Assembly: GCA_020444165.1 (NCBI GenBank)
Contig: JAHLLK010000057.1
Coordinates: forward strand, 1 to 39,930
DNA: 39,930 nt
Reading direction: 5' to 3'
Origin: Deltaproteobacteria bacterium
GTDB taxonomy: Bacteria; Desulfobacterota; Desulfarculia; Desulfarculales; Desulfarculaceae
The translations under genes were made by a program, and so were the position numbers. This document shows, in pieces, positions 9,518 to 36,866 of this stretch (positions are counted from its first letter, which is position 1; the number at the start of each line of letters is the position of its first letter). Below the pieces are notes generated by a model. That model was not told the origin of the DNA. It saw only the letters and a list, made by a program, of their open reading frames with translations, and did not search any database.

Positions 9518-9525
9518 ACCGCCAC

Positions 9526-9555: not shown

Positions 9556-9593
9556 CTTCCGGCTGGCCGGCAAGAGCATGGTTTTGCCAGTTG

Positions 9594-11338: not shown

Positions 11339-11412
11339 GCTGTCGCCTGAACCGTATCCCCGGTGGGGGCCCCTGCTCCGCCGGCCGCTACCCCTTTGGC
11401 CCAAGGATGGTC

Positions 11413-12645: not shown

Positions 12646-12767
12646 GTAAAAGCTGACAAGCACGCGCGGCAGGCGGCAAGACCCGGCTCCGTGCGTGCGA
12701 GCAATGACTTTAAACCAGCGTCAGGCCGGCTCAGCCAAGCGGGCGGGGCGGCCGGGGGGAGAATCCC

Positions 12768-13919: not shown

Positions 13920-14016
13920 CCACCTGGCCCAAGGCCCGGCGGCGCGGTTCGCCCCTGGAACCGCGCCGGAGCCCGGCGCCCTCCACTCCCCAACCGTCCA
14001 CCCCGCGGGGTAAGCC

Positions 14017-17000: not shown

Positions 17001-18957
17001 CCAATACAAGCGCTACCAGGAGATCAAGGAGCAGCTCACCAAGGCCCACACCATGGAGCGAGCCGAGGTGGAGAAGCTGGTGGCCGAGGGCCGGGAGCTG
17101 GCCAGGCAGCTGGGCTATACCCAGGAAGCCACCGAGGACCAGACCGACGCCGCCACCGGCAGCAAGCAGCCCAACGAAGATCTGGCCAAGGCGTTGGAGG
17201 GGGTGGCGGATGCGGTGGACGGGCTGAAGCAACTCCTGGAGGCCCTGCCGGCCAGTGGAACCACCTGGGACTGGTATATGAATGGCCACTTCAATCTTCC
17301 CTCCGGCGGGACCGGAGAGGGCGAAACCCCGCCCAGCCACCACACCGGAGCCTACATCTACCACCACGGCGGCCAGGCCGGCCTGCCCAGCTTCCACACC
17401 GGCGGCCTGGCCGCGGACGAGGTGCTGGCCATCCTGCAGAAGGGCGAGGGCGTCATCAACAAGCAGTCCACCGCGGCCCTGGGCGGCCCCGCGGCCATCG
17501 CGGCCCTGAACTCGGTCACGGCCTCCAGCCTGACCACCGCGGCCGACCAGACCGACGAGGAAACCCAGCGCCTGGCCGAGGCCTACGCCAAAGCCATCCA
17601 GGAAATGCAGAGTTGGGACGCGGCCTGGCTGCGGGAGCGCTTCACCGCCGAGCAGCAGGCGGGCGACCAGCTCATTCAGGAGCGCAACCGCCAGATGGAG
17701 CAGGTCAAGGCCTGGGAGGAAGAGGGCACCATCACCCACGAAGAGGCCGCGGCCCGCAGGGGGCTCATCGACCAGCAGTGGGCGGCTGACGTGGTGAAGC
17801 TGCGGGAGGAGGTGACCAAGGCCTTTGAGCAGACCATGGCCGACTTCTGGGAGGGCCAGAAGAGTCAGGCCGAGCAGGCCCACGACGCCATCATGCAGCA
17901 GAACCAGGACCTGCTGGACGAGTTGCAGCGGCAGTACGAGTCCGGGGCCATCGGCACCTGGGAAGAGTACCAGAAGCGGCGTCTGGAAGTGGAAGCCATG
18001 ACCGACAAGCAGCTCCAGACCCTGCGGAGCGAGGCCTACCAGAGCTTGCAAGCCATAGTGGACAACTCTCTCAAGGGCGAACTGAGCGCCACTGGGCAGC
18101 AGGTGCAAACCCTCAATGACACCTACCGGGACCATCTGCGGGAGCTGGAGGACTACTACCGGGCCGGCGCCATCTCCCAGCAGGACGCCCAGAAGTGGCG
18201 GCTGGCCCTCCAGGAGAACTACCAGCGGGAGCTGGAGCAGATCACCAAAAAGGGCTTGGACCAATTGGAGAGCCTGGAGACCAGCGCCTTGGGCCAGCGC
18301 AAGGATCGCCAGGAGGAACTCCTGAGTGAGCTCTTGGCCACCGAGGGCCTGACCCAGGAAGGCATCCAGAGCCGCATCGCCGAGCTGATGGGAGTCAACC
18401 AGGACCTCGCGGGGCTGGAGAAAGACCAGAAGGTGCTGGATAGCCTCCAGAATTGGCTGACCTCGCCCTTCACCAACGCCACCGAGGCCGCGGCTCTGGT
18501 GACCCAGGCCCGAGATCTGTACGAATCCCTGGGCTTCCAGCAGCTGGGCGCGGGCGGGGGGCTGGCCGGCTCCGCGGTGGGCGTGATTGGCGACCAGGAG
18601 TTCTTGCAGGGCTGGACCGTGTCCGATCCCATCACCGACCCCGGGGCCCTGGGCACCGGGGTCAAGGTGCCGGTAATCCGTGGGCTGGACCTGCCCGGCC
18701 CCATTGGCCCGGCCGGCGGGGGCAAGAGCCCGGACTCAGCCTACCAGGCGCGGCCGGCCTCTCCAGAGCAGCAGCCGGTGCAGGTGGTTATTAACGTAGG
18801 CCAGGTGGGCCAGCTCGCCGACGCGGTGATCGAGGCATCGGTCAAGGAGTTCCGGACCTTCCTCTACCAGGAGCAGGCGCGCCAGGCCCAGACCGGCGGC
18901 CCCAAGCCTTACACCACCAGCATCTCGCGGCCGGCCCTGGCCCCGGTGCGGAGGTAG
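14017..18957 (+). CDS. Phage tail tape measure protein
   Basis: At 1646 residues this is the largest gene in the window. It sets tail length and occupies the tail lumen before DNA ejection. The N-terminus TTELVVTVRVDGADQVAGS is typical. A lambda-like tape-measure segment, EKALLGEFENVEDALSGLGD followed by AFVKILAQMAAAWVANE, lies near residues 170-205. A glycine-rich hydrophobic stretch at about 541-608 is a candidate membrane-active segment. Long Gln/Glu-rich helices follow, especially residues 1180-1500. HTGGLAADEVLAILQKGEG near 1128 is a common tape-measure motif. The Shine-Dalgarno is weak (GGGG). The hub gene begins three bases after its stop. Confidence 0.92.
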   Translation: MRDTTELVVTVRVDGADQVAGSLSAVSGQLNRLTVQADGNQGALDKLGRQYLSLALLSAQATGNLQRDQDRLLRNLAANREWLAREEARLTGDTTRLKILDLDRYLAQVRQHTTDEGEVRRRGALRWQELNRSSLDKMLDQWRNHNANLAKLTENLLSSLQSTWSGWLEKALLGEFENVEDALSGLGDAFVKILAQMAAAWVANESLAGMASFFQDLKSGLSGGNWSFGKLGSWWDSLWSGANTATETAALHLDTSATALDTAAAGHSTAASGLSTAAGALSAAAQALAGAAAVGGGGGGGISIGLKLPGWGGDGESGDAAWGDMDWGDWDGWEGLSANSTNFRSLQNDWEGINAEITAAQKEARLGLKDYLGVLTSAYALYAGLSGLADENRSKISSTLQAAGGAAGLYTNQALRSWLGLGQIGAGGQAAVAGIGMAGAGYGLYQNFQSIRDQGLNLGNGLGAASNAYNLYNAGKGLYTAYQTWQGVQAGAQGLSGGVQVAGNVGVGTGVGASSQGAALSPGFSWSNLGSGLTTAGAGMAGGIAGNYFISQTIAKDRPQAMYGAAGGALAGATIGSIIPGIGTAIGAGLGALFGAIFGGAGAGLFGGSVKKPANERLGSTERQYKAWTNLTNLAGVNPEYMRGLGSERLDLGRNTAFLEIDKSLKLGGLSQELREMALETDTGAASLKNMLENLDPVKLAMGRAMEAYHDFNLQVKDTVASSTQGALEFDGYASSGQHLSEKMSELAHNLGLPEEQTQALTGKVDQAITTWQQFGGSTDELTRKLENEFANALLDSVQAGEEDLQMTQAEQAAKEAMIAELDAIIAARQGAAAATEEEQAANEKAQATWAELQELVAGTGAMGQFAAQSLGALSLAFESGQLNLEEYRAAQEDIAEHLRDYNEMLADQTRRTTEAATAEELLIAGMQNAAIVSQIQADYYAQNGQALSLLDAQTQALTGSIDQLLTVNSLDALEQREMVNLLLFQSGRTEELTNQYKRYQEIKEQLTKAHTMERAEVEKLVAEGRELARQLGYTQEATEDQTDAATGSKQPNEDLAKALEGVADAVDGLKQLLEALPASGTTWDWYMNGHFNLPSGGTGEGETPPSHHTGAYIYHHGGQAGLPSFHTGGLAADEVLAILQKGEGVINKQSTAALGGPAAIAALNSVTASSLTTAADQTDEETQRLAEAYAKAIQEMQSWDAAWLRERFTAEQQAGDQLIQERNRQMEQVKAWEEEGTITHEEAAARRGLIDQQWAADVVKLREEVTKAFEQTMADFWEGQKSQAEQAHDAIMQQNQDLLDELQRQYESGAIGTWEEYQKRRLEVEAMTDKQLQTLRSEAYQSLQAIVDNSLKGELSATGQQVQTLNDTYRDHLRELEDYYRAGAISQQDAQKWRLALQENYQRELEQITKKGLDQLESLETSALGQRKDRQEELLSELLATEGLTQEGIQSRIAELMGVNQDLAGLEKDQKVLDSLQNWLTSPFTNATEAAALVTQARDLYESLGFQQLGAGGGLAGSAVGVIGDQEFLQGWTVSDPITDPGALGTGVKVPVIRGLDLPGPIGPAGGGKSPDSAYQARPASPEQQPVQVVINVGQVGQLADAVIEASVKEFRTFLYQEQARQAQTGGPKPYTTSISRPALAPVRR

Positions 18958-18960
18958 GCC

Positions 18961-20700
18961 ATGGCCCCCGGTGCCAACTTTCTCGCCTGGATCACGGCCG
19001 GCTGCCAGCGGATCTACACGGCCGAGCTGAGCCTCGTCCGCCTGTCCGACGGCCAGGCCCTGAACGTGTATCTGGCCAGCGACGGCGGCTATTGGGACGG
19101 GGCGCACTACTACTTCCCGGCGATATCCAAGCTGCCCAGCGTGGAGCGCCAGGCCCAGCAGTTCGACAACGGCCATGCCATGATCTCCTACGGCAGCCTG
19201 GAATTCCTGATCGACGCCACGGCAGACGTGGCGGGCGGGCTCTCCCTGGACGACCTCCTGACGGACTACGCCTGGGCCGGGCACCACATCACCATCCGGA
19301 TCGGCGCCAAACGGCCGGACAGCGCGGTCCTGCCCTGGACCGACTGGGCCGTGGTGCTGGCCGGGGTCATGGAGGCCCCCGCCTGGGACGACCAGACCGT
19401 GACCCTGGGCATCAAGGGCCTGGACGACCTCCTGGCCAACACCCCCATGCCCGACTCCATCCTCACCGACGCGGAGTTCCCGGCCTGGGAGAGCGGCGCC
19501 TACTACTTTGCCGGCTCCCTGGTGCGGCCGACCACGGCCAATGGCTTCATCTACCGGGCCAGCCCCAGCTCTTTCATGATGACCGGCGGAGCCACGGAGC
19601 CCACCTGGCCCACGGCCCAAGGCTCCACCGTCACCGTGGCTGAGGGGGATTGGGTGTGTTGCAAAATCCCTTCCGTCACTGAGGGCAAGCCGCGGCCCAT
19701 CACCCTGGGCTACTGCCGGGACATCCCCCTGGTGCTGTTCGAGGATGTCCAGCGCTTCTACATGTTCCACGAGGGGCTGCGGCACCAGCACCCCCGGCTC
19801 ACCGGCACTTTCCGGATGGCCTTTGCGGAGGCCACCAGCGGCTGGCATTTCCGGCCGAGCGGCCGTGAGGGCGACGCGGTCAGTTATGTGGAGTTGGACG
19901 GCGACCCCATCGGCAACCCCACCCTGACCTTCACGCCCAGCGGCCTGCTCGGCCCGGGGGAAGGCTGCGCCCTGGAGGAGATCGTCCAGACCATCATCAC
20001 CGACTACGTGGAGAAGATGCACGGGGTCAGCATCGCGACCGACATCGAGGCCGGCCTGTTCACCGAGTATTTCGGCATCCACCTCGACTCTCAGTCCAAC
20101 GCCCTGGACGTCTTGTCCAGCCTGACCCACGGCATCCTGTGCCTGTTCGGCTTCGACCGGGAGGGGGTGTTCCACCTCCGGAAGCTTAGCCCGCCGGAAG
20201 ACGGCGCCCCGGTCATGGAGTTCGACGACGATCACGACACCTTCACGGTGAGCGCGGAGGTGGAGCCCCGGATCTACTCCCAAGCCCGCATCGGCTACGG
20301 CCTCAACTACTCCCACGGCGGAGAGATCGACTCCACGGTAGATGCCACCACCCGGGCCTACGGCGACCGGGACTACCTCTGGCAAGAGGTCAAGGACGAC
20401 ACCATCAAGGCCAAGTTCCCCCTGGCCACGGTGGCCGAGTTTGGGACCTGCCTGGCGGACACGCCCACGGCCTCCCCCAGCGGAGCGGAGACCCTGGCCC
20501 AGGAGTACCTGGATCTCTTCGGGGCGCGGCGGCTGATCCTGACCTTGGAGACCACCCTGCCGGCCATGCTTCTGGACCTGGGCAACGTGGTGAAGGTGAC
20601 GCGAAGTCGCTGGGGACTGGAGGCCGGCCGGAACTTGGTGGTGTTGGGCCTCAGCGAAGACCATGAAAAGGGTCACCTGACCCTGAAACTGTGGGGGTGA
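18961..20700 (+). CDS. Phage tail tip / hub-like protein
   Basis: A 579-residue protein immediately downstream of the tape measure gene, the usual place for distal-tail or hub proteins. It is rich in beta segments. The N-terminal part (VRLSDGQALNVYLASDGGYW ... YYFPAISKLPSVERQAQQFD) resembles tail components that recruit receptor-binding proteins. The C-terminal part ends in VVKVTRSRWGLEAGRNLVVL, similar to the ring-forming domains of hub proteins. LEEIVQTIITDYVEKMHGVS is a helical segment in the middle. No peptidase motif was found. The exact family is not certain. Only three bases separate it from the preceding stop, so coupling is likely. Confidence 0.7.
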   Translation: MAPGANFLAWITAGCQRIYTAELSLVRLSDGQALNVYLASDGGYWDGAHYYFPAISKLPSVERQAQQFDNGHAMISYGSLEFLIDATADVAGGLSLDDLLTDYAWAGHHITIRIGAKRPDSAVLPWTDWAVVLAGVMEAPAWDDQTVTLGIKGLDDLLANTPMPDSILTDAEFPAWESGAYYFAGSLVRPTTANGFIYRASPSSFMMTGGATEPTWPTAQGSTVTVAEGDWVCCKIPSVTEGKPRPITLGYCRDIPLVLFEDVQRFYMFHEGLRHQHPRLTGTFRMAFAEATSGWHFRPSGREGDAVSYVELDGDPIGNPTLTFTPSGLLGPGEGCALEEIVQTIITDYVEKMHGVSIATDIEAGLFTEYFGIHLDSQSNALDVLSSLTHGILCLFGFDREGVFHLRKLSPPEDGAPVMEFDDDHDTFTVSAEVEPRIYSQARIGYGLNYSHGGEIDSTVDATTRAYGDRDYLWQEVKDDTIKAKFPLATVAEFGTCLADTPTASPSGAETLAQEYLDLFGARRLILTLETTLPAMLLDLGNVVKVTRSRWGLEAGRNLVVLGLSEDHEKGHLTLKLWG

Positions 20701-20704
20701 GCAC

Positions 20705-21565
20705 ATGCCGGTAAGCCGATTTACTTTCTTTGAGCAGAGCGACGCGGCCATCCTGACCGCCTCCAGCGAGGCGCCCACCCGGCCGGCCGTGAACCTGCAG
20801 GACCGCTACCGCACCCGGGTCTGGCGCTCCACCGCCCTGGCCGGCCAATGGGTCCGCCTGGACTTCGGGGCCGCGGTGCCCTTGGACACCTTGGCCCTGG
20901 TGAGCCACAACCTCAGCGGCGGCTCCCAGGTGACGGTGCAGGCCGGCTCCAGCGCCGGGGCCGGCGACCTCTACCGCGGCGCCTTCGCCGGCGCTGACCC
21001 CATCTTCGGGGCCGACGATATCGGCAACGACGAAATGGGCGCCGACGGCTACCCGCTCCCGGGGTACGAGACGGACTGGTGGCCCAACGGCCCGGTGCAG
21101 GTGATCTACCTGCCCAGCGCGGTGGAGGCCCGCTACTGGCAGTTCAGCTTCGACGATCCGGACAACCCGGACGATTACCTCGAAATCGGCCGCCTGGGCC
21201 TGGGCTTCAAGATCGAGTATGACCGCACCTTTACCGAGATCAGTGAGTGCGGGGTGATCCACCCCGGGGGGGTCAACTACTCCCTGGGTGGCGCGGCCCA
21301 CTTGGATCCTCGCCAGCCCTACCGCCAAGTCAGCGTGGAGTACCAAGGAGTGCCCCAGGGAGCCATCTGGGCGGTCTGGCAGCGGCTCCGCCAGCGCATG
21401 ACCGTGGGCCGGGACTTCGTGACCGACCTCTATGCGGACGGCGATTTTTACCCCGCCCAGCACGAGGGCCGCCTTTATGGCCACCTGGCCGAAGCCCCTC
21501 CCGGCCTCAGCATCGCCACCCCGATCATCGCCAACCTCACCCTTACCATCCGGGAGTCGGTCTGA
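20705..21565 (+). CDS. Tail protein with discoidin-like carbohydrate-binding fold
   Basis: A 286-residue beta-rich protein. The first 180 residues follow a discoidin (F5/8 type C) pattern: SSEAPTRPAVNLQDRYRTRV, WRSTALAGQWVRLDFGAAV, PLDTLALVSHNLSGGS, and later ARYWQFSFDDPDNPDDYLEI. Such domains bind sugars or lipids and are found in phage tail tips. The rest (GGVNYSLGGAAHLDPRQPY ... WQRLRQRMTVGRDFVTDLY) looks like a separate beta domain. It starts four bases after the hub stop and overlaps the next gene by one base (TGATG). Role inferred: surface adhesion of the particle. Confidence 0.7.
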   Translation: MPVSRFTFFEQSDAAILTASSEAPTRPAVNLQDRYRTRVWRSTALAGQWVRLDFGAAVPLDTLALVSHNLSGGSQVTVQAGSSAGAGDLYRGAFAGADPIFGADDIGNDEMGADGYPLPGYETDWWPNGPVQVIYLPSAVEARYWQFSFDDPDNPDDYLEIGRLGLGFKIEYDRTFTEISECGVIHPGGVNYSLGGAAHLDPRQPYRQVSVEYQGVPQGAIWAVWQRLRQRMTVGRDFVTDLYADGDFYPAQHEGRLYGHLAEAPPGLSIATPIIANLTLTIRESV

Positions 21566-22791
21566 TGGGAACCTTCGACGGCTTCAAGTTTGATTACCAC
21601 GGCCGCAGCGTGGCCAAGTTCAACGCCTTCCTGACCCTGCTGGACACTATCCTGGCCGGCACGGCCGACCCGGCCAAGGTGCAGATCGGCACCAGGGCCG
21701 AGCGCGCGGCCTTTGCCACGCCCTATATGGGGCTGTTGTGGGTGGAGACCGACCACCCCGCCCTGTGGCGCTATGACGGCAGCGTGTGGCAGTACGCCGG
21801 CGGGGCCGAGGCCCTGGGCCGCAAGAACTACCTGATCAACGGCGGGTTCAACGTAGCCCAGCGGGGCACAACCTTCACCGGGGCCACCACGCCCGCCAAC
21901 AATGACGACACCTTCCTGACCGACCGCTGGTGCCTCTTGTCCAACGGCAACGACCGGTTGGACGTGTCCACCCCGGGCGTCAGCTTCGCCGGGCAGTCGG
22001 GCTACATGTCCTGGAATATGCAGGCCGCCTACCAATGCGCCGTGGTCCAGTTCCTGGAATACCGGGACACCCTGGAGCTGGTGGGGCAGTTGGCCGCTCT
22101 GTCCTTCTGGGCCAAGAAGCGCGCCACCAACGTCACGGCCGGGACCCTCCGGGCCGCGGTGCTGGCCTGGGCCGGGACCGCCGACGCCCTCACTAGCGAC
22201 GTAGTGGCCACCTGGGCCGGCAACGGGACCGAGCCCACCTGGGCGGCGGGCTGGACCCGGGCGGGCATAACCGACCCCATCAACCTCACTACCACCCTGA
22301 CCCGCTACAAGCTGGAGAACGTGAGCATCCCGTCCGGGACCAACAACGTGGCGGTGGTCATTTGGCTGGACGATACCAACGCCATCGTGGGCGACGTCAT
22401 CGACCTGTCGGACGTGCAGCTCGAGAAGGGCGGCGAGGTGACCACCTATGAGCACCGGCCCTATGCCCAGGAGCTGGCCTTGTGCCAGCGCTACTACCGG
22501 CGGTTGCATCGCGGCGCGGGATGGGCCTCTAACGCAACGACCATTACCTTCAACGCGGCCTTGTCGCCACCGATGCGAACCGCCCCCACCATGGGACTGC
22601 TTACCACCACCCTTTTGGCGGCAACAGGCGGCGGATGGGGCGATGCGACGGCTAGTCCGCTATCAATCAACGCCACCCAATTCACCCCGCATGCCATCAA
22701 GTATCGACTGACTGGATGGACCGGCCTCAGCACGACCATCGGATACAGCATCGTTGACGACAACTGGGGCGAACTGAGCGCCGAGCTTTAG
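21565..22791 (+). CDS. Tail fibre / carbohydrate-binding tail protein
   Basis: A 408-residue protein with an N-terminal segment found in short fibre proteins (GLLWVETDHPALWRYDGSVW). A jelly-roll carbohydrate-binding-like region follows (YLINGGFNVAQRGTTFTGA, FLTDRWCLLSNG, LSFWAKKRATNVTAGTLRAA, GDVIDLSDVQLEKGGEVTTY). The phrase LINGGFNVAQRG with VQLEKG is a recurring signature of phage tail and fibre proteins. The C-terminal 90 residues differ and may be the receptor-facing tip. It starts by overlapping the previous stop (TGATG). There is no chaperone-type autocleavage motif. Confidence 0.75.
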   Translation: MGTFDGFKFDYHGRSVAKFNAFLTLLDTILAGTADPAKVQIGTRAERAAFATPYMGLLWVETDHPALWRYDGSVWQYAGGAEALGRKNYLINGGFNVAQRGTTFTGATTPANNDDTFLTDRWCLLSNGNDRLDVSTPGVSFAGQSGYMSWNMQAAYQCAVVQFLEYRDTLELVGQLAALSFWAKKRATNVTAGTLRAAVLAWAGTADALTSDVVATWAGNGTEPTWAAGWTRAGITDPINLTTTLTRYKLENVSIPSGTNNVAVVIWLDDTNAIVGDVIDLSDVQLEKGGEVTTYEHRPYAQELALCQRYYRRLHRGAGWASNATTITFNAALSPPMRTAPTMGLLTTTLLAATGGGWGDATASPLSINATQFTPHAIKYRLTGWTGLSTTIGYSIVDDNWGELSAEL

Positions 22792-22799
22792 GAGGTTCC

Positions 22800-23324
22800 A
22801 TGGAAATCGCGAGCGTGACCCGCAACACCGAGGGTGGCTTCCTGGTCGCCCTGGCCGATAGCCGGCTTCTGGCCGTGCCCGATGATCCGGCCAACGCCGA
22901 CCGCCAGGCCGTGGCGGTCTGGGAGGCGGCCGGCGGAGTGATTGGAGAGGCGGGGGTGGACCTGGAGGCCCGGCGGGCCGAGCGCCAGGGGGAACTCCTG
23001 GCCGTGGTCAACCGGTTCATTGAGGCCAAGCCCGACGGCCGCACCCGCTACGACACCAACCTGAAGCTGAACGTCATCATGGCCGGCGTGAACGCCCTGG
23101 CGGCCGGCCAGGCCAAGCCCACCCCGGTGGCGGCGGTGGAAGCCTGGATCGCCGCGGTGCAGGCCGAATACTTCGGGCTCAAGGCCGCCCTGGCCGCAGC
23201 CGCCACCCCGGAGGAATTGGATGCCGTGGACCTGACCTATGACCGTCTGGAAGGGCTCTACGGCGTGGCCGGCAGCCAGGCCCCGGACCCGGACGTGACC
23301 ACCGCCGACCTGGCGGGGCAGTAG
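22800..23324 (+). CDS. Small protein downstream of the fibre gene (possible fibre-assembly factor)
   Basis: A 174-residue soluble, Ala-rich, largely helical protein. ATG 22800 follows GGAGG at close spacing. The N-terminal part (SVTRNTEGGFLVALADSRLL) reads as a small beta domain and the rest as helices (VDLEARRAERQGELLAVVNR). Position directly after the fibre gene is typical of tail-fibre assembly chaperones, and the pattern of a short beta part followed by helices fits those. I do not recognise a defined family, so the role is positional inference. Confidence 0.6.
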   Translation: MEIASVTRNTEGGFLVALADSRLLAVPDDPANADRQAVAVWEAAGGVIGEAGVDLEARRAERQGELLAVVNRFIEAKPDGRTRYDTNLKLNVIMAGVNALAAGQAKPTPVAAVEAWIAAVQAEYFGLKAALAAAATPEELDAVDLTYDRLEGLYGVAGSQAPDPDVTTADLAGQ

Positions 23325-23333
23325 GAGCGCGCC

Positions 23334-23612
23334 GTGACCGGCGTGGAGCTGTTGCAAGTCGCGGCCCTGGTGATCGGGGTGGGCGCGCCGGTGGTGAGCC
23401 TGGCCGTGTGGTACGGGGTCACCAACCAGCGGGTCAAGAATATCGAGACCATGTTGGCCTGCATGCAGGGCCGCGAGGACTCCTGCCGCACCGCGGTGGA
23501 CCTGGAGGTGGACAAGCTGCACACCCGGGTTACCCGCAACTCCGAGGAGATCGCCCGTATCGTGGGGCGCTTGAACGGCCACGTTTACCCGGGAGTGCGC
23601 GATGGGCTCTGA
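23334..23612 (+). CDS. Small membrane protein with coiled coil (lysis-cassette candidate)
   Basis: A 92-residue protein with one N-terminal membrane span (LLQVAALVIGVGAPVVSLAV, about residues 6-25) and a charged helical C-terminus (VDKLHTRVTRNSEEIARIV). Its start is GTG 23334 after AGGAG. It overlaps the lytic transglycosylase gene by 11 bases. Single-span proteins of this shape beside an endolysin are usually holin-accessory or spanin-type proteins. No gene in the cassette has clear multi-span holin character. Confidence 0.65.
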   Translation: MTGVELLQVAALVIGVGAPVVSLAVWYGVTNQRVKNIETMLACMQGREDSCRTAVDLEVDKLHTRVTRNSEEIARIVGRLNGHVYPGVRDGL

Positions 23613-24054
23613 TCCCCAACGGCAGCTGATCCGAGCCGCGGCCCTGGCCCACGGCCTGGCGCCGCACGTCCTGGCCGGCCTGGTCAGGGTGGAGAGCGGC
23701 GGCAACCCCTGGGCGGTGCGGGCCGAACCGGGTTACCGCTGGCTGGTGGGTGACGATCCGGGGGAGCCGCTTCTGGTCCCCCCGGGCTCCACCCGGGACA
23801 CCGAGTGGGCCTGCCAGCGCCTGAGCTGGGGACTCTGCCAGGTCATGGGCGCCACCGCCCGGGAGCTGGGCTATGCGGGCTGGCTGCCCCGGCTGGCCGA
23901 CCCGGCCCTTGGTTTGGAGTATGGAGCCCGCTACCTGGCCCGCTGCCTGGCCCGTTCCCAGGGCAACCTGGTGCTGGGGCTCCTCAAATACAACGGCGGC
24001 GGCGATCCCGGCTACCCCCGGCGGGTTTTGGACGCCGCGGAAAGTTGCCGCTGA
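23602..24054 (+). CDS. Lytic transglycosylase (SLT lysozyme-like endolysin)
   Basis: A 150-residue single-domain SLT-type transglycosylase that would cleave the glycan backbone of peptidoglycan. The catalytic Glu31 is in VRVESGGNPWAV. The supporting SWGLCQVMGATARELG motif and a late YNGGGDPGYPRRVLDAA motif are present. No signal peptide is seen, so export would need a holin or similar partner. It starts inside the 3' end of the small membrane protein gene. Confidence 0.85.
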   Translation: MGSDPQRQLIRAAALAHGLAPHVLAGLVRVESGGNPWAVRAEPGYRWLVGDDPGEPLLVPPGSTRDTEWACQRLSWGLCQVMGATARELGYAGWLPRLADPALGLEYGARYLARCLARSQGNLVLGLLKYNGGGDPGYPRRVLDAAESCR

Positions 24055-25485: not shown

Positions 25486-26640
25486 GTGCCGCCCATCCCT
25501 GATCTCCCGACCCATTTCGCGCCGGCTTCTCGCTCCGAACCGCCGGAGGTTTCCCGGCAAGCCGCGGCCGTGGAGCGCCATCCCGAGTTGGGTCATCTGC
25601 TGGACCACATCCCCGATTTGCTTTTGGTTCTCAACCGCCATCGGCAGGCGGTGTTCAGCAACCAAAAGCTTTTGGAACTGCTGGAACTCGAGGATTTCAG
25701 TCCCCTGTTGGGCCAGAGGCCCGGCGAGATCCTGAACTGCATCCACAGCCGGGAAATGCCGGGCGGCTGCGGCACCAGCCAAGCCTGCCAGCACTGCGGC
25801 GCGGTGCTGGCCATCTTGGCCGGTCTGGAGGGCCAGCGGGCCGTGCAGGAGTGCCGCCTCACGGTGCGGCGCGCCGAGGGGATCCTGGACTGCCTGGATT
25901 TGCAGGTTTGGGCCTCGCCCCTGGAAGTGGGCGGAGAGCCCTACACCTTTCTGGCCATTTCCGACCTGAGCGACCAGAAACGCCGGCGGGCCCTGGAGCG
26001 CATCTTTTTCCATGACCTCCTGAACACCGCCGGCGGGCTGTTGAACCTGACGGAGTTGTTGCAGGAGCCGGACCGCCATGATGTGACCAAGCTCACCAGC
26101 AGCTTGCACTTGGCCGCCGAACGGCTGGTGCAGGAGATCCTGGCCCAGCGCGAGCTTTCCGCGGCGGAAAGCCACGAACTCCAGGTCTCCCCCCGGGCCT
26201 TTTTCGCCGGGGCGTTCCTGAACCGGCAATTGCAGATCGTGGCCTGCCATCCCATGGCCCGGCAAAGCCCCCTGGAGCTGAGGGCCCCCGCCTTGGAAGA
26301 GGAGCTGGTCACGGACCAGGCTCTCTTGGGCCGGGTTCTGCTCAATTTGCTGAAGAATTCCCTGGAGGCTTCCCTGCCGGGCCAGGGCGTGTCCGCCGGT
26401 TTTCAGGCCAAGGACGGCGGAGTGGAATTCTGGGTGCACAACCAAACCGACATGCCGCCGGAAGTGCAGTTGCAGGTCTTCAACCGCTCTTTCTCCACCA
26501 AAGGGCCCGGCCGGGGTCTGGGCACCTACAGCGTCAAACTCTTTACCGAGCGCTACCTGGAAGGCCGGGTCGGTTTCACCTCCAGCCCGGAGGAAGGCAC
26601 CACCTTTCGGGTCTGGGTGCCCCGCAGCCTGCCGGCCTGA
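25486..26640 (+). CDS. Soluble PAS histidine kinase with a Cys cluster
   Basis: A 384-residue cytoplasmic sensor kinase starting at GTG 25486 (GAGGAG nine bases upstream). A PAS-like domain spans about residues 35-165. Inside it lie Cys85, Cys95, Cys101 and Cys104 (CGTSQACQHCG), a cluster suited to iron-sulfur or other metal binding, so redox sensing is plausible. The H-box is FFHDLLNT with His176. The N-box is NLLKNSLEAS with Asn291. The ATP lid reads FSTKGPGRGLGTYS, and the D-x-G-x-G box is replaced by HNQTDMPPEV. No membrane span and no adjacent response regulator were seen. Confidence 0.88.
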   Translation: MPPIPDLPTHFAPASRSEPPEVSRQAAAVERHPELGHLLDHIPDLLLVLNRHRQAVFSNQKLLELLELEDFSPLLGQRPGEILNCIHSREMPGGCGTSQACQHCGAVLAILAGLEGQRAVQECRLTVRRAEGILDCLDLQVWASPLEVGGEPYTFLAISDLSDQKRRRALERIFFHDLLNTAGGLLNLTELLQEPDRHDVTKLTSSLHLAAERLVQEILAQRELSAAESHELQVSPRAFFAGAFLNRQLQIVACHPMARQSPLELRAPALEEELVTDQALLGRVLLNLLKNSLEASLPGQGVSAGFQAKDGGVEFWVHNQTDMPPEVQLQVFNRSFSTKGPGRGLGTYSVKLFTERYLEGRVGFTSSPEEGTTFRVWVPRSLPA

Positions 26641-26794: not shown

Positions 26795-26855
26795 CCGAAC
26801 CTCTCCCCCAGACACCCCGTCCGGGGCCCCAGCGCCCCCCAAGGAGAGGACAAGC

Positions 26856-27614
26856 ATGGCCATAAGCAATCACCTGGGCTGGCGCCGGAAATTCCTGCCC
26901 CTGCCCACCAGCCTTTTGCGCCGCCGCACCCAGAGCGCGGTCCGCAAGCTGGAAGCCTACCTGGGCTTCATGACCCCGGAGCACCACCAGGTGCGCAACT
27001 TCATAGTGCTGGAGCTGCCGCGGCGGGACACCCCCCTCCCCCCCGAGGAGATCGCCGCCCGGCTGGACCTGCCGCCCGCGCGGGTGGCGGCCATTCTGGA
27101 CGATCTGGCCTCGCACATGTTTTTTGTGGCGCGGGACGCGGCCGGGGCGGTGATTTGGGCCTATCCGGTCACCGTGGAGGAGACTCCGCACCGGGTCAGT
27201 TTTGCCAGCGGCGAGCAGACCTTCGCGGCTTGAGCCGTGGACGCCTTGGCGACGCCCTTCGTGCAAGGGCGCTTACGGTCGGAAAATCTGGCGGTGCTGG
27301 TCCAAAGCTCCTGCGCGGTGAGCGGGCGGCCGCTTACCCTGGAAATCGACAGCAACCTGCAGCACCGGGTGCAAGAGCCCGGGGCGCGGCCGATTATTTT
27401 CGCGCCGCTCCAGGTGGTGCAGCCCGGGGCCGCCAACATCATTGACGGGTTTTGACGCAAGTCCGTATTCTTCTGGTCAGAAGAAGAAGCCAAAGAGCAT
27501 TGCCGGCGGGGCGGACAGCCCATGGGCAGCTACCGGACCCTGGAGCAGGTGGCGGTCATGACCCCCCTGATCCAAGGCGCGCTTTTCCCCGTGTCCGGCG
27601 GGGCTGGAGTTTGA
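26856..27614 (+). CDS. MerB-like (organomercurial-lyase family) protein with two predicted selenocysteines
   Basis: Read with TGA 27231-27233 and TGA 27453-27455 as selenocysteine, this is a 252-residue protein in one frame ending at TGA 27612-27614. It has an N-terminal helix-turn-helix-like domain (PPEEIAARLDLPPARVAAIL), then AYPVTVEETPHRVSFASGE and FAA-U126-AVDALATPFVQGR. VQSSCAVSGRPLTLEI follows, then DGF-U200-RKSVFFWSEEEA. From memory of MerB, U126 aligns with catalytic Cys96 (CALD), the Asp three residues on with Asp99, and U200 with Cys159 (SFCCHVHFF, with the FF pair in register). Downstream family-like sequence continues to YRTLEQVAVMTPLIQGALF. AAGGAGAGG precedes ATG 26856. SECIS-like hairpins follow both TGAs. 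A MerR-family gene starts 19 bases later. A pseudogene with two nonsense mutations is the alternative. Confidence 0.85.
27231..27271 (+). promoter_or_regulatory. SECIS-like element after the first in-frame TGA
   Basis: CGCCCTT (27253-27259) and AAGGGCG (27265-27271) form a perfect 7-bp stem with the five-base loop CGTGC. The stem begins 20 bases after the last base of the TGA, and the loop lies about 27-31 bases after it. Bacterial SECIS elements typically have a short loop with an early G in this distance range. It lies inside the coding sequence, as expected for SelB-dependent insertion. Confidence 0.7.
27453..27485 (+). promoter_or_regulatory. SECIS-like element after the second in-frame TGA
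   Basis: TTCTTCT (27468-27474) and AGAAGAA (27479-27485) form a perfect 7-bp stem closed by the loop GGTC. The loop starts 20 bases after the TGA. As I remember it, the E. coli fdhF SECIS also presents GGUC in its apical loop at a similar distance. Confidence 0.75.
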
Positions 27615-27633
27615 CGGAAAGCAGGCAGGGGTC

Positions 27634-28197
27634 ATGTACACCGTGGGAAAATTGGCCAAGGAGTTCGGGCTCTCGCGCAGCACCCTCTTGTACTACGACT
27701 CCATCGGCCTCTTGCAGCCCGCAGGCCGGGCCAAGGGCGACTACCGCCGCTACTCCCCGGCGGACGCCCGCCGCCTGGGCCAAATCTGCCTCTACCGCCG
27801 GGCCGGCCTCAGCCTGGCCGACATCGCCCGGGTGCTGGACGCCCCCCACAGCAGCCTGGTGGCGGTGCTGACGGACCGGCTGGAGCAACTCAACCAGGAC
27901 ATCACCCGCCTGCGCGAGCAGCAACGCTTCATCATCGGCATCCTGAAGAACCGGGCCCTGGAGGGCCGCTTGGGGGTGATGAACCGCCAGAGGTGGGTGC
28001 AGCTTTTGGAGGCCTCGGGGTTCAACCAGGCGGACATGCTCCGCTGGCACGCGGAGTTCGAGCGGCTGGCGCCGGCCAAGCACCAGGAGTTCCTGGACTT
28101 CCTCTGCATCCCCCCGGAGGAGGCGGCCCGCATCCGCCGCTGGGCCCGGGAAAACCCGCCGGAGCCGGCGGCCGGGGCAGGAGCCGAGTCGGCCTGA
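27634..28197 (+). CDS. MerR-family transcriptional regulator
   Basis: A 187-residue regulator. The N-terminal winged helix MYTVGKLAKEFGLSRSTLLY and YYDSIGLLQP...YRRYSPADARRL is classic MerR. A long dimerisation helix follows (LEQLNQDITRLREQQRFIIG). The C-terminal part (RWVQLLEASGFNQADMLRWH) is an effector domain I do not recognise. The three Cys of the mercury sensor MerR are not present in the expected places; only two isolated Cys occur. It starts 19 bases after the MerB-like stop, probably in one operon, and may regulate that gene. A long hairpin terminator follows. Confidence 0.92.
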   Translation: MYTVGKLAKEFGLSRSTLLYYDSIGLLQPAGRAKGDYRRYSPADARRLGQICLYRRAGLSLADIARVLDAPHSSLVAVLTDRLEQLNQDITRLREQQRFIIGILKNRALEGRLGVMNRQRWVQLLEASGFNQADMLRWHAEFERLAPAKHQEFLDFLCIPPEEAARIRRWARENPPEPAAGAGAESA

Positions 28198-30230: not shown

Positions 30231-30478
30231 GAGAGCATTGCACGGGGCGTCCTGCCCCGTGCAATGTCGGCTTGGCAAAAACGTGACTCCACCCCAGCAA
30301 GCAGAGCTTGCCGGGGGCCCGGGTTTTGCCAAGCCTCACAAATTGCAAGCTTTTTGAAGCTTGCAATTTGGCGGGCCATCCTTGGCCCGCATCGGCCATT
30401 GCCTGCCGTAATCATGTTTCACAGCCAGTTTTGATATAATATCAACATGATTTATGTGTTTCAGCATGCAATGGCCTC
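30231..30478 (+). repeat. 248-bp structured dispersed repeat, copy B
   Basis: This is the partner of 9594-9841, in direct orientation 20637 bases away, without insertions or deletions. The third hairpin is perfect here (13 bp at 30340-30352/30357-30369), whereas copy A has one mismatch. It sits between the acyl-CoA dehydrogenase start and the acyltransferase gene. Differences between copies cluster in the AT-rich tail and spare the hairpins. Confidence 0.9.
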
Positions 30479-31799: not shown

Positions 31800-32004
31800 G
31801 CGCGGCCCCCCGCCTCTTTGGCTCCTGCCCAGTCCGCCGTTTCCGAGCTTGGCCCCCCAACGCGCGGAGGAATTTCCGGGCGGGCGAAAGCTCCGCCTGG
31901 GGTCCGTCACTCAGGGCTTGCATCCCCCGCCGCGGCCGGCTTACCCTGTCCCTTGGCCCTGTTCATTCCGCCGCCGCCGTTGACCTCCGGGGGGAGTCTT
32001 GTCC

Positions 32005-35000
32005 ATGGCCTATGACCTGTTCGTTTCCTACGCCCGCAAAGACAACGCCAACAGCCGCATAGACGAGTTCGTGGCCCACCTGAAAGCCCGGGTCGAGGGC
32101 GTGGCTGGCCGGGAAATCCGCATTTTCTTTGATAAAAGCGAAATCCACGGCATGGAGGACTGGCGGCACCGCATCCTCCGGGGCCTGCGGGAATCCCGCC
32201 TGCTCCTGGCTTTTCTCTCGCCGGCTTATTTCGCCAGCGAGTGGTGCCAATGGGAGTTCGTCGAGTATCAGAAAGGCGAACTAGCCAGCCCCTTTTTCGG
32301 TGACGGGGTGGCTCCCATACTCTTTGTAGATGTGCCCGGGCTGGATGGCGATGGGTTCGCCAAGGAGCACGGGCCATGGCTCGCCGATTTGCGCCGCCGT
32401 AACCACTTCGACCTGCGCCCCTGGTATGCCGCCGGCGCGGCGGCCCTGGGGGAGCCCGCGGTGGCCCAGGCCATGGCCAGCCTCCAGGAGCAGTTGGGCA
32501 GCCGCCTCCGGCGGGTGAACCAGGCCGGCGCCAGCCCGGGCAACGTGCCGCGGCCCAACCCCCACTTCGTGGGCCGGCGGGCCGAGCTGCCTGGCCTGCG
32601 GGAGAGCCTGGCCCTGCGCCGGGTGGGGGTGCTGACCACGGCCCATGGCCTCGGCGGCATGGGCAAGACCACCCTGGCAGTCGCATATGCCCACGCCTTT
32701 GCCCACGAGTATGGCGGCGGCCGCTGGCTGATCCCTTGCGCGGGGCAAGATGACCTGCGCCTGGTCTTGGCCGGCCTGCACCACGCGCCGGGCCTGGCCT
32801 TCGAGTTCACCGAGGCGGAAAAACTCGACCTGGATAAGCAGTTCGCCCGGGTGCTGCGGAACCTGCAAGCCCGAGCCGCGGCTGGCGAGCCCCCCGCCTG
32901 CCTCGTCATCCTGGACAACGTGGACCAACCGGCCCTCCTGGCTCCGGCCCAGCTCGATCGCCTGCCGGCCGCGGACTGGCTCCAGGTGCTGGCCACCTCC
33001 CGCCTGGGGGAGGAGGATCTGCACGGGCTGGGGGGTGACCGGGAATTCGTGGACGTGGACAAACTGCCGCCGGACGACGCCCTGGACCTGCTCCGGTCCT
33101 TCCAGCCGGGAGAAAAATTCCAGGACGACCGGGAGGAGGAAGCCGCCCGGGACATCGTGCGCCTCCTGGACGGCTTCCCCCTGGCCGTGGAGAGCGCCGC
33201 GGTCTATCTGGGTGAGACGGCCAACCAAGGGGTTACCTGCGCCGGGTTCCTGGCGCTGCTGCGGGACCAGGGCATTACAGGCTTGGATGAGAAAGCCCGG
33301 GGTACCCAAACCGGGGTGCGGCACGTTGAAAAGCGCCTGCGGGCCACTCTGCTGCCCACCTTGGAGCTGCTCAGCCCCGTCGAGCGCTGTGTGCTGGATT
33401 ACGCCGCCCTCCTGCCCCCGGACGCCGTGGCCCTCCCCTGGCTGCGCAGCCTGGTGGTCCGGGAGCATCCCGAGCTGAACCAGGAGGTGAAACCCGGCTG
33501 CGCCGACCCCTGGCTGAGCGCGCTCCGCCGGCTGTTCAGCCTGCGGCTCTTGCAGCTCATGGAAATTGCCGAGGGAGAGAAGGCCCCGCGCCTGGCCCGC
33601 CAGCATCGCCTGATCCAGGACCTTTTGCGCCGGGAGATGGCGAGAGAAGTAGTCCTAGGTCGCTATGCAGCCGTAACCGAAGTAGTCGCGGATCGTGTGA
33701 AAGCATTAAGGGAAGAGACGAGGTGGGTGCAAGCACGCTGGGAGCTTAGGCCCCTGGAGGCCTTGGCCCGGGCAGATGATGAACAGGGACACGAGGGAGC
33801 AGCCTGGCTACTGAATGAAGTGGGTTATCACTATTACATTATGGCCGACTGGCCCACCGCCGAACCTCTCTTTCGCCGGGCCCTTGCCCTAGATGAGGCT
33901 AGTAAGGGTCCGAACCATCCTCATGTGGCCACCATGTGCAGCAATCTGGCTAAGCTTCTACAAGCCACTAACCGCCTTGCCGAGGCCGAGCATTTGCATC
34001 GCCGTGCCTTGGCCATAGACGAGGCCCGTTATGGTTCGGAGCATCCCGATGTTGCCCGGGACTGTAACAATCTGGCCGAGCTGCAACGCGTCACCAATCG
34101 CTATGCCGAAGCCGAACCCCTGTATCGTCGCGCCCTAGCCATAGACCAGGCCACCTATGGGCCGGAGCATCCCGAGGTGGCCACCTCATGCAACAATCTA
34201 GCTCTGCTGTTGTTCGCAACTAATCGCCTGGACGAGTCCGAACAGCTATTTCGCCATGCTTTGTCTATAGACGAGGCTCACTATGGGCCGGACCATCCCG
34301 ATGTAGCTCGTGATGCCAACAATTTGGCGCTACTACTGCAGGCCACCAGCCGCCATGCCGAAGCCGAGCAGCTATTTCGCCGTGTTTTGACCATTTTGAA
34401 GGCCAGCTATGGGCCGAAGCATCCCAAAACGGCCACCGCTTGCAACAACCTAGCCATGCTGCTGCAGGCCACCAACCGTCTGGGTGAGGCCGAGCAGCTA
34501 TTTCGCCGTGCGTTGGACATAGACGAGGCCAGTTACGGGCCGAAGCATCCCGACGTGGCCCGGGACTGCAATAATTTGGCCGAGTTGTTGCGCCTATCCA
34601 ACCGTCTGGGCGAGGCCGAGCCGCTCTATCGCCGCGCTTTGGCCATTTGGGAGACAAGCTACGGTCCGGAGCATCCAAACGTCGCAACCGCATGCAACAA
34701 TCTGGCCGGGCTGCTCTCTGCCACCAACCGCCTGGCCGAGGCCGAGCCGCCTTACCGCCGCGCCTTGGCCATAGACGAGGCCAGCTACGGACCGGACCAT
34801 CCCGCGGTGGCCACCGACTGCAACAACCTGGCCGAGTTGCTGCGCGCCACCAACCGCCTGGCCGAGGCCGAGCCGCTCTATCGCCGCGCCCTGGCCATAG
34901 ACGAGGCCAGTTATGGGCCGGATCATCCCGACGTGGCCACCGACTGCAATAACCTGGCCGTGCTCCTGGAAGACACCAACCGCCTGGCCGAAGCCGAGCC

Positions 35001-35166
35001 GCTTTACCGCCGCGCCCTGGCCATTTTTGAGGCTAGCTACGGGCCGGAGCATCCGAACGTTATAACTGTTTGCAACAACCTGGCCACTCTTCTTCGCGCT
35101 ACCAACCGCCACGCCGAAGCCGAGCAGCTCTTGCAGCGCTACTCGCCCGAAAGCAGCCGTAGCTGA
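32005..35166 (+). CDS. TIR-NB-ARC-TPR protein (bacterial STAND, NLR-like)
   Basis: A 1053-residue cytoplasmic protein. The TIR domain is about residues 2-140: YDLFVSYARKDN, IRIFFDKSEIHGMEDWRHRI, then ASEWCQWEF, whose Glu84 is the candidate NADase catalytic residue. An NB-ARC ATPase follows at about 185-580: P-loop GLGGMGKTT (215-223, Lys221), Walker B LVILDNVDQ (Asp304), LATSRLGEEDL and GFPLAVESAAVYL (GLPLA-like). From residue 619 there are ten 42-residue TPRs with the kinesin-light-chain pattern (YGPEHPxVATxCNNLAxLL). ATG 32005 is chosen, with GGGGAG eight bases upstream. The last codon overlaps the next start (TGATG). Family knowledge: STAND proteins detect invaders through the repeat domain and activate the effector domain. 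Confidence 0.93.
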   Translation: MAYDLFVSYARKDNANSRIDEFVAHLKARVEGVAGREIRIFFDKSEIHGMEDWRHRILRGLRESRLLLAFLSPAYFASEWCQWEFVEYQKGELASPFFGDGVAPILFVDVPGLDGDGFAKEHGPWLADLRRRNHFDLRPWYAAGAAALGEPAVAQAMASLQEQLGSRLRRVNQAGASPGNVPRPNPHFVGRRAELPGLRESLALRRVGVLTTAHGLGGMGKTTLAVAYAHAFAHEYGGGRWLIPCAGQDDLRLVLAGLHHAPGLAFEFTEAEKLDLDKQFARVLRNLQARAAAGEPPACLVILDNVDQPALLAPAQLDRLPAADWLQVLATSRLGEEDLHGLGGDREFVDVDKLPPDDALDLLRSFQPGEKFQDDREEEAARDIVRLLDGFPLAVESAAVYLGETANQGVTCAGFLALLRDQGITGLDEKARGTQTGVRHVEKRLRATLLPTLELLSPVERCVLDYAALLPPDAVALPWLRSLVVREHPELNQEVKPGCADPWLSALRRLFSLRLLQLMEIAEGEKAPRLARQHRLIQDLLRREMAREVVLGRYAAVTEVVADRVKALREETRWVQARWELRPLEALARADDEQGHEGAAWLLNEVGYHYYIMADWPTAEPLFRRALALDEASKGPNHPHVATMCSNLAKLLQATNRLAEAEHLHRRALAIDEARYGSEHPDVARDCNNLAELQRVTNRYAEAEPLYRRALAIDQATYGPEHPEVATSCNNLALLLFATNRLDESEQLFRHALSIDEAHYGPDHPDVARDANNLALLLQATSRHAEAEQLFRRVLTILKASYGPKHPKTATACNNLAMLLQATNRLGEAEQLFRRALDIDEASYGPKHPDVARDCNNLAELLRLSNRLGEAEPLYRRALAIWETSYGPEHPNVATACNNLAGLLSATNRLAEAEPPYRRALAIDEASYGPDHPAVATDCNNLAELLRATNRLAEAEPLYRRALAIDEASYGPDHPDVATDCNNLAVLLEDTNRLAEAEPLYRRALAIFEASYGPEHPNVITVCNNLATLLRATNRHAEAEQLLQRYSPESSRS
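33859..35118 (+). repeat. Ten tandem 126-bp coding repeats (TPR array)
   Basis: The TPR part of the TIR-NB-ARC gene consists of exactly ten in-phase 126-base units, each encoding A-E-x-L-x-R-R-A-L-x-I-D-E-A-x-Y-G-P-x-H-P and N-N-L-A-x-L-L-x-x-T-N-R. Units 8 and 9 are the most alike. A partial eleventh unit closes the protein. Arrays like this can change copy number by recombination. Confidence 0.9.
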
Positions 35167-36866
35167 TGGCGGAACCCGCCCAGCCAGCGCCCCCTGCCCT
35201 CCCCCCAGGCTCGCCCCTGCCCCCTCCTTCCTGCCTCATCCCCCTGGCCGTGGCGGTCACCGGCCACCGCGATCTGGCGCCCGCGGACGAGGACCAGGTG
35301 CGAGATTTGGTGCGGGAGGGGCTGGCGGCTCTCCGGGCGGAGCAGCCCGCCACCCCTCTGGTGGCCCTCTCCGGCCTGGCCGAGGGCGCGGACATGGTCT
35401 TTGCCGAGGCGGCCCTGGCGGCCGGGGCGGAGTTGGTGGCCGTGTTGCCGGCCCGGCCGGAGGTGTTCGCCCGGGACTTCGACCACCCGGCCCATGCCGA
35501 GCGGCAGCCCGCGGCGCTGCGGGAGCGCTTCTCCCGGCTGCTCTCGCGTTGCAGCCAGGTGGTGGTGGTGGCCGAGAACCTGCCGGCCACCGATCCCCGC
35601 CGCTACGCCCGGGTGGGAGCCTATCTGTTGCGCCACGCCCACCTGCTTTTGGCCCTGTGGGATGGCCGGGAATCCGACCAGGAGGGCGGCACCGCCCAAG
35701 TGGCGCACCTGGCCCGGACGGGGGCGCCTTCCGCTGATCCGCCCTCCCCCTGCCGCGCCCTGGACGCGCCCGCGCCCATCCCGGTGCACCACCTGCGCAC
35801 CCCCCGGCGGGGCGAGAGGTTGGCGGGGAGCTTCACTTGGCAGATTCTCCAGGCCGGCGCGCCCGCGGACACCCTGGCCGACCTGCACGCCTTCAACCAG
35901 AGCGCCCGCGAGTTTGCGGGCCGCAACCAGGCGGCCGTGGACCAAGCCTTGGCCGACCTCAACCTGCCGGACCACGAACTGACCTTCGCCGAACAACGCA
36001 TCCAGCAGGTTTACGGCGTGGCCGACGCCATGGCCGGAGCATTGCAACGCCGGAACCTCCGCCACCTGGGGATCATCCACGGCGTCAGCCTGGTCATGCT
36101 GGCCGCCTTTGCCATCCACTCCACCATCGTGGCCAACCTTTATCTTTACCTGCTCTATTTCCTGGCCTTCAGCCTGGGCCTGTTCTGGTACGGCCGGGGC
36201 AGGAAGCAGCGGGTTTACCCCCGTTTCGTGGATTACCGCGGCCTGGCCGAGGGCCTCAGGGTGCAGCTCTTTTTCCGCTTGGCCGGGGCGCCCGCCCGGG
36301 TTGCTGACCTGTACTTGCGCAAGCAGCAGAGCGAACTGGCCTGGCTGCGCCAGGCCCTGCGGGTGCTGGATATTGGCCCCCCGCGGCTGGAGCCCCGGCC
36401 GGAACTGGTGCGGGCATCCTGGATAGAGGCTCAGGCCGGCTACTATGCGAACGCCCAAAAGCGCGACGCCAAGGCGCTGGCCCTTTTCAAGCGCATCTCC
36501 TTTGCTGGGTTCGGGACGGGCTTGCTGGTCGGCGCGGCAGGGCTTTTGCTGGAAGGGGCCAAACCGGCCCTGCACGATTCCGACCTGCTGCACTGGCTGT
36601 TCCTGTTCACCGGGCTTCTCCCGGGCGCCGGCGCCCTGGCCAGCAGCTACGCCCAGCGCCGCGGCCTGGCCCAACACGTGCGGGAATACGCCCAGATGGG
36701 GGAGATATTCCGCCGGGCCGCGCGACAGGTCAGCGCGGGCGACCTGACCCAAGACCCCGGAGCCTTCCGGGAGCTGGTCCTGGAGCTGGGCCGGGAAGCC
36801 CTGGCCGAGCACGCCCAATGGGTGGTGCAACACCGCGAGCTGCCGCCCAACCTGCCCGGCAGTTAG
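35166..36866 (+). CDS. SLOG-domain protein with four membrane spans (SLATT-like effector)
   Basis: A 566-residue protein. After a proline-rich start, residues about 28-175 form a Rossmann-like SLOG/LOG domain: VAVTGHRDLAPAD, then VALSGLAEGADMVFAEAAL with the G-x-A-x-G-A-D nucleotide-binding signature, and LLALWDG. Two 2-TM units follow, near residues 302-345 and 445-495. Each is next to a conserved SLATT-like element (VDYRGLAEGLRVQLFF, YYANAQKRDAKALALFKRI). SLATT domains are predicted pore-forming effectors tied to nucleotide signalling. The start ATG 35166 overlaps the TIR gene stop by one base without a strong Shine-Dalgarno, so the pair is translationally coupled. I infer that it senses the product of the TIR domain. 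Confidence 0.8.
   Translation: MAEPAQPAPPALPPGSPLPPPSCLIPLAVAVTGHRDLAPADEDQVRDLVREGLAALRAEQPATPLVALSGLAEGADMVFAEAALAAGAELVAVLPARPEVFARDFDHPAHAERQPAALRERFSRLLSRCSQVVVVAENLPATDPRRYARVGAYLLRHAHLLLALWDGRESDQEGGTAQVAHLARTGAPSADPPSPCRALDAPAPIPVHHLRTPRRGERLAGSFTWQILQAGAPADTLADLHAFNQSAREFAGRNQAAVDQALADLNLPDHELTFAEQRIQQVYGVADAMAGALQRRNLRHLGIIHGVSLVMLAAFAIHSTIVANLYLYLLYFLAFSLGLFWYGRGRKQRVYPRFVDYRGLAEGLRVQLFFRLAGAPARVADLYLRKQQSELAWLRQALRVLDIGPPRLEPRPELVRASWIEAQAGYYANAQKRDAKALALFKRISFAGFGTGLLVGAAGLLLEGAKPALHDSDLLHWLFLFTGLLPGAGALASSYAQRRGLAQHVREYAQMGEIFRRAARQVSAGDLTQDPGAFRELVLELGREALAEHAQWVVQHRELPPNLPGS

Follow-up and report, generated by a model that had tools for sequence, protein, structure and literature searches.

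A putative MerB-family protein with predicted selenocysteines at both catalytic cysteine positions

Results

The gene and its register with MerB

The DNA analysed here (the window) is a stretch of 39,930 nucleotides (nt), contig JAHLLK010000057.1, from a deltaproteobacterium of the Desulfarculaceae, and our subject is a gene on its forward strand, at 26856-27614, that we predict to encode a MerB-family protein with two selenocysteines (Sec). The gene starts at ATG 26856, closely downstream of a Shine-Dalgarno-like AAGGAGAGG (26841-26849), and ends with a TGA stop at 27612-27614. An earlier note, made from the sequence alone, had described a frame of 253 codons interrupted by two TGA codons; the interruptions stand (TGA at 27231-27233, residue 126, and at 27453-27455, residue 200, and no others), but the length counted the stop codon and the protein has 252 residues.

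The protein matches the Pfam family MerB (PF03243; E=1.3e-15; score 57.9 bits, cut-off 27), a MerB fold is predicted for it with confidence, and its nearest solved folds are those of MerB2 and MerB (PDB 5c17; 3f0o and 1s6l). The catalytic residues of MerB are Cys96, Asp99 and Cys159. Alignment with solved MerB places residue 126, the first predicted Sec codon (site 1), on the Cys96 column and residue 200, the second (site 2), on the Cys159 column, the register that the earlier note had proposed. Likewise, the Asp99 equivalent is retained as it had stated: Asp129 (codon 27240-27242, forward strand) aligns to Asp99, and Asp lies three residues past site 1 in all 80 of the related loci described below. 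Both neighbouring genes, at 27634-28197 and 25486-26640, also terminate with TGA; TGA is therefore not an ordinary sense codon in the window's genome.

Relatives at the level of DNA

A scan of genome contigs with the window sequence alone found no relatives, but a scan with an alignment of the family gave 121, among which 80 loci were kept. There was no relative in the viral contigs scanned, and the plasmids scanned held two matches, both distant. The codon pair at sites 1 and 2 is TGA/TGA in 78 of the 80 loci and TGC/TGA in two (L063 and L077), which excludes chance as the origin of the two TGA codons; the earlier note had thought random nonsense mutations unlikely. A TAA within the matched span of L049 is that gene's terminal stop, and no other internal stop was found in the 80 loci. 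By record title, 26 loci belong to Chloroflexota, 14 to Thermodesulfobacteriota and 8 to Acidobacteriota, and a further 13 stand under old 'Deltaproteobacteria' titles, in part filed as Myxococcota by lookup. Nitrospirota, Gemmatimonadota, Rokubacteria, Binatota, Zixibacteria and others are represented by single records, assignments that may be binning errors because nearly all 80 loci are metagenome-assembled.

The patterns used in the alignment scan overlap the motifs 3' of each TGA, and that scan favours conserved motifs; we therefore repeated the survey with a profile hidden Markov model (HMM) on genomes drawn by taxonomy, in four draws that partly overlap. Strong matches numbered 5 in 63 genomes of the class of G001 (the genome that holds L001, the double-Sec gene nearest to the window's), 3 in 350 genomes of the phylum of G005 and 15 in 395 genomes of the phylum of G008; 396 genomes of the phylum of G038 gave 8 strong genes, in 7 genomes, and 2 partial ones. 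Strong matches scored 212-395 bits and partial matches 107-140, and everything else, including MerB proteins with Cys, scored 64 or less. These amounted to 31 distinct strong or partial loci, 30 of them located by script, and all 29 that have both sites read TGA/TGA; the partial loci L134 and L135 have TGA at site 2. When the two surveys were deduplicated and combined, with the window included and L135 excluded, site 1 was TGA in 94 of 96 genes and TGC in 2, and site 2 was TGA in 97 of 97. Scattered stops, which the earlier note had named among the signs that would refute its reading, were not what the relatives displayed; they alternate between TGA and Cys at site 1 and have TGA alone at site 2.

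Two weak C-terminal matches, L118 (50 bits) and L138 (34 bits), have family sequence only 3' of site 2 and unrelated sequence upstream, and we read them as decayed remnants or assembly joins.

Hairpins downstream of each TGA

A bacterial selenocysteine insertion sequence (SECIS) is a hairpin that lies near downstream of its TGA and has a G early in the apical loop. The window has one predicted SECIS for each Sec codon, both on the forward strand: hairpin 1 at 27253-27271 (CGCCCTT-CGTGC-AAGGGCG), whose stem starts 20 nt past the last base of the first TGA, and hairpin 2 at 27468-27485 (TTCTTCT-GGTC-AGAAGAA, encoding FFWSEE), whose stem starts 13 nt past that of the second. Both thus lie close downstream and have an early loop G, and their pairing is selected. 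In the combined set hairpin 1 has its full 7 pairs in 66 of 96 genes, the inner 6 in 91 and the inner 5 in 95, with failures mostly at the outermost pair, and hairpin 2 has its full 7 pairs in 94 of 97; the loops are CGTGC in 91/96 and GGTC in 96/97, respectively. Shuffling of synonymous codons (81 genes, 500 times each) never reached the observed pairing (z=21.4 for hairpin 1 and 12.7 for hairpin 2). Codon use inside the hairpins departs from that elsewhere in the same genes, Pro being CCC in 78 of 79 cases versus 29% and Gly being GGG in 78 of 81 versus 24%. Furthermore, paired changes preserve the stems. For instance, the innermost pair of hairpin 2 changes from T-A to C-G in 8 genes (Trp to Arg) and its fourth pair does so in 2 (Phe to Leu), and in hairpin 1 the third pair changes from C-G to T-A in 3 genes (Pro to Ser) and the second from G-C to T-A or C-G in 4. 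From these sequence comparisons we conclude that both hairpins are under selection. Together with the codon bias and the paired changes, this means that conservation of the PFVQG and FFWSEE motifs is, at least in part, conservation of RNA.

L077 and L063, whose site 1 codon is TGC, differ in this region: the former has lost hairpin 1 and the latter retains it. An Rfam search of 26800-27700 returned no SECIS family and three chance-level matches (microRNA, long non-coding RNA).

Selenocysteine machinery in carrier genomes

Of the 80 carrier genomes, 45 were searched for SelB, the selenocysteine tRNA (tRNA-Sec), HgcA and MerA. SelB scored above its cut-off in 40 of these 45 compared with 2 of 14 control genomes. 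A tRNA-Sec scored above 60 bits in 33 carriers, and at the lower Rfam cut-off there were matches in 35 carriers and 5 controls. In the class of G001, SelB was present in 5 of 5 strong carriers versus 43 of the 63 genomes of the class. G001 itself, whose acyl-CoA dehydrogenase is 89% identical to that encoded in the window, has SelB at 380 bits, and its best tRNA-Sec match is below cut-off at 43.9 bits. The selenocysteine reading proposed in the earlier note is thus supported both by the TGA/Cys pattern in the relatives and by the Sec machinery of the carriers.

Relatives in protein databases

Searches of 5.8 billion protein sequences provided 124 proteins, taken from 28 matches and the best 120 of 2587. 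Among those listed, 60 end at site 1 and 20 reach no further than site 2, their residue at site 1 being Cys in 17, Trp in 2 and Arg in 1. The other 44 extend beyond site 2, and none has Cys there: 43 have Trp at both Sec columns and P0003 has Gly and Leu. The Trp forms (43 within P0002-P0125) sit mainly on short contigs from metagenomes and probably result from gene calling under genetic code 4, in which TGA is Trp; in the set of 96 genes read at the DNA level, neither site has TGG. Such Trp-form entries are a possible route to hidden selenoproteins.

A search for twin-arginine-like patterns matched 7 of the 80 loci, of which by eye L012 alone resembles a twin-arginine signal; P0026-P0028 have, like L012, an N-terminal extension resembling such a signal by eye. 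Judging from these extensions, some family members may be exported.

The neighbourhood and mercury genes

The gene is followed on the same strand by a MerR-family regulator (27634-28197; Pfam MerR_1, 3.5e-16) that starts 19 nt past its stop. The same arrangement occurs at L001, where a MerR-type gene with 75% identity to the window's lies ~19 nt downstream. A related MerR-type regulator adjoins the gene in the window and in 9 of the 80 loci, in 8 of which it is upstream, and 5 of the 80 have a MarR-type regulator no more than 1 kb upstream. The MerR-type regulator next to 10 of 81 genes probably controls them, and that of the window is likely a dedicated regulator of the double-Sec gene. Neighbours were assessed by tblastn and by Pfam tallies of the nearest open reading frames (ORFs) for the 25 commonest families, using 89 of 117 ORFs upstream and, downstream, 88 of 117 together with the window's MerR, with nested and antisense ORFs dropped by eye. 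A conserved operon partner was considered and rejected, there being none in these tallies beyond the MerR and MarR types.

HgcA was above cut-off in 17 of the 45 carriers. In the phylum of G008, 9 of 15 strong carriers had it at E<=1e-60 versus 107 of 380 other genomes (Fisher p=0.017, uncorrected for kinship), and 8 of 15 versus 105 of 380 had it above the curated cut-off (p=0.04, likewise uncorrected); with the six previously known carriers removed, HgcA was present in 5 of 9 (p=0.13). The association of carriers with mercury methylation that these genome comparisons suggest is weak and we do not use it as proof. At one locus, L073, the ORFs at 6198-9582, directly upstream of the double-Sec gene and on its strand, encode HgcA, an HgcB-like protein, a hemerythrin-like protein and a further product; the HgcA ORF (the family match of G039, placed by coordinates) and the HgcB-like ORF, recognized by eye from its ferredoxin motifs, are 2-3 kb upstream. 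The lone MerA-positive carrier, G033, is the genome of L063, which has Cys in place of the first Sec. Weaker MerA matches, in 44 of the 45 carriers and 13 of the 14 controls, are related flavoproteins.

Comparison with described MerB-type proteins

In MerB both sites are catalytic Cys, whereas in the window's family both are TGA. Identity over the fold with the MerB and MerB2 structures is 17-23%, and the N-terminus has ~20 more residues than that of MerB (by model ranges). Unlike canonical MerB, the family showed no mer operon, and MerA accompanied it in 1 of 45 carriers. With the two NCBIfam MerB models the window protein scores 54.3 bits (cut-off 193) and 50.6 bits (cut-off 200); five relatives are likewise below, and no NCBIfam model (June 2026) scores above cut-off for any of these six.

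SaoL (NF040728), the MerB-like organometallic lyase of the SAO system, is, like the window's family, a selenoprotein, and its profile matches the window protein weakly. We nevertheless rejected membership on the tree and on score, the window protein reaching 42.8 bits against a cut-off of 140 and the six proteins scanned 36-45. The one true SaoL encountered, L119, served as positive control: it scored 175.7 bits, its site 1 is Cys, and the tree places it outside the double-Sec clade. No recurrent transporter, as a partner of the SAO kind, appeared in the nearest-ORF tallies, and no search was aimed at other Sao families.

The table of a 2026 review (PMC13188914) classes SaoL as 'organometallic', with motif CU and one Sec (two are predicted in the window's family); this row is its sole MerB entry and accounts for both places where the review names MerB. 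In the table of a 2022 review (PMC9312934) there is one MerB-like row, with the same accession as the SaoL row. Among the predicted selenoproteins of a 2020 table (PMC7435645) is an 'organic mercuric lyase MerB2', again MerB-type like the window's family; the passage gives neither sequence nor number of Sec, and the entry may correspond to that family or to SaoL. Proteins with two Sec, MbdU and a UxxU metal-binding protein, do appear in PMC13188914 but are placed there in other families. Term searches found no mention of MerB in PMC2398784, PMC5029168 or PMC12013277, and among the papers listed by full-text searches, in a body of literature that excludes most subscription papers and preprints, no description of a double-Sec MerB was found.

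Two further groups of MerB-like genes were seen. L086 and L123 (both at 1486-2067) represent a second, divergent lineage that has TGA at both sites, UxxE replacing UxxD, and YAUSTM, with a FRSEE-type hairpin after site 2; it forms a separate branch in the tree (100/100) and scores under the NCBIfam cut-offs. In L098, L100, L137, L140, L144 and L121 site 1 is Cys and site 2 is TGA, several of them carry a TCTTCCGGTCGGAAG-type hairpin, and the two that were scanned, L098 and L121, score under the SaoL cut-off.

Other features of the window

Phage-like structural genes were recognized by eye at ~9980-24054, including a capsid-like gene and a long tape-measure-like protein (14017-18957). A 248-nt dispersed repeat occurs at 9594-9841 and 30231-30478, its copies 97% identical. 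The gene at 31999-36866 encodes a large protein with a TIR-like N-terminus by eye and weak PADLOC matches, and its 3' part consists of 126-nt tandem repeats (TPR-like by eye); the 566-residue protein that follows has one weak PADLOC match. On the reverse strand, 37136-39538 encodes a PrimPol-like protein (PADLOC PrimPol, 2e-110) with helicase-like matches in its second half.

Discussion

The two SECIS-type hairpins, the clade spanning many phyla and the MerR-type neighbour add to what the earlier note had seen in the window. What would such a protein do? We consider it most probable, at roughly 65%, that it is a double-selenocysteine protein of MerB type that cleaves carbon-metal bonds, most likely carbon-mercury bonds, an estimate drawn from sequence. 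Among the functions that had been listed, lyase chemistry appears to be the best fit, given that all 80 loci retain the Asp99 equivalent, and family membership would favour mercury as the substrate. In the mechanism we propose, each UGA would be decoded as Sec by SelB and tRNA-Sec through its own hairpin. The two selenolates would then bind the metal of the organometal, as Cys96 and Cys159 do in MerB, and Asp129 would protonate the carbon, as Asp99 does, releasing the hydrocarbon; the recipients of the metal would be cellular thiols, sulfide or selenide, not a mercuric reductase. To our knowledge, no lyase has been described in which a metal is held by a pair of selenocysteines. In favour of selenium, model chemistry described in a passage of PMC11639659 has selones cleaving organomercurials faster than their sulfur analogues.

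Several observations weigh against this interpretation. The missing MerA and mer operon speak against classical mercury resistance: MerA was above cut-off in G033 alone among the 45 carriers, no mer operon was seen, and no mer partner except MerR-type regulators recurs in the tallies. Mercury-sensing MerR has a mercury-binding triad of Cys, and alignment of the adjacent MerR-type proteins revealed no Cys pattern resembling it. In the Pfam tallies of nearest ORFs (25 commonest families) no family other than the MerR and MarR types had more than 3 members among 89, and hgcAB, searched with one query per protein from L073, lie close to the gene in 1 of the 80 loci. Among the listed proteins, P0003 (Gly and Leu) and P0024 (Arg) have other residues at Sec columns. 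The check for selB and selC that the earlier note had proposed was borne out for most carriers and not for all, SelB being under cut-off in 5 of 45 and a clear tRNA-Sec lacking in 12, G001 included, counts that refer to carrier genomes and not to the window's own. Lastly, the binding of selenium to mercury is exceptionally tight, and a grip of selenolates on Hg(II) may be too firm to allow turnover.

Could the protein act on something other than mercury? A MerB-fold protein with two Sec that works on another organometal or metalloid (methyl-tin, -lead, -arsenic, -selenium or similar) is unlikely, yet it is the rival that we take most seriously. It would accommodate the absence of a mer operon, the scarcity of MerA and a regulator without the canonical mercury cysteines, and the MerB-like selenoprotein SaoL is classed as 'organometallic' in the table of PMC13188914; however, no recurrent neighbour in the tallies indicates another element, the nearest solved folds are MerB2 and MerB, and more than a third of the carriers tested (17/45) have HgcA. 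We find it improbable that the selenolate pair serves as a sink or chaperone for Hg(II) or another soft metal without catalysis: the affinity of selenium for mercury is established chemistry and the gene stands alone in the neighbour tallies, but a sink would have no need of the catalytic Asp kept in 80/80 loci. That same Asp, with the MerB fold and the lack of a recurrent redox partner in the tallies, makes it more improbable still that the two Sec form a diselenide for electron transfer or peroxide reduction, even though, according to PMC9312934, a redox role is presumed for the majority of prokaryotic selenoprotein families.

The readings to which we attach almost no weight are that of a pseudogene and that of TGA as Trp or stop. 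Their support consists of the 43 among 124 listed proteins with Trp at both columns, probably code 4 calls, and of the C-terminal fragments L118 and L138, taken as decayed remnants without site 2. Against them, TGG occurs at neither site in the genes read as DNA, the neighbouring genes use TGA as stop, the hairpins are under selection, and SelB and tRNA-Sec are found in most carriers tested. We rejected both readings on the codon, hairpin and neighbouring-stop evidence.

Returning to the double-Sec lyase, a more specific role is tentative: a double-selenolate enzyme of MerB fold by which anaerobic sediment bacteria lacking a mer operon, in some cases mercury methylators themselves, demethylate methylmercury is possible, though we would not favour it over the alternatives taken together. 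If true, there would be a selenium-dependent route of demethylation that has been overlooked because gene callers truncate the gene at its first TGA. A question arising from our observations is "How would a pair of selenolates release its metal?" Site 2, which is TGA in each gene read, and site 1, which is TGA and rarely Cys, constitute a natural experiment. Should the activity be confirmed, the turnover of methylmercury in sediments could involve a widespread family that annotation has missed, either by ending its genes at TGA or by calling them with Trp.
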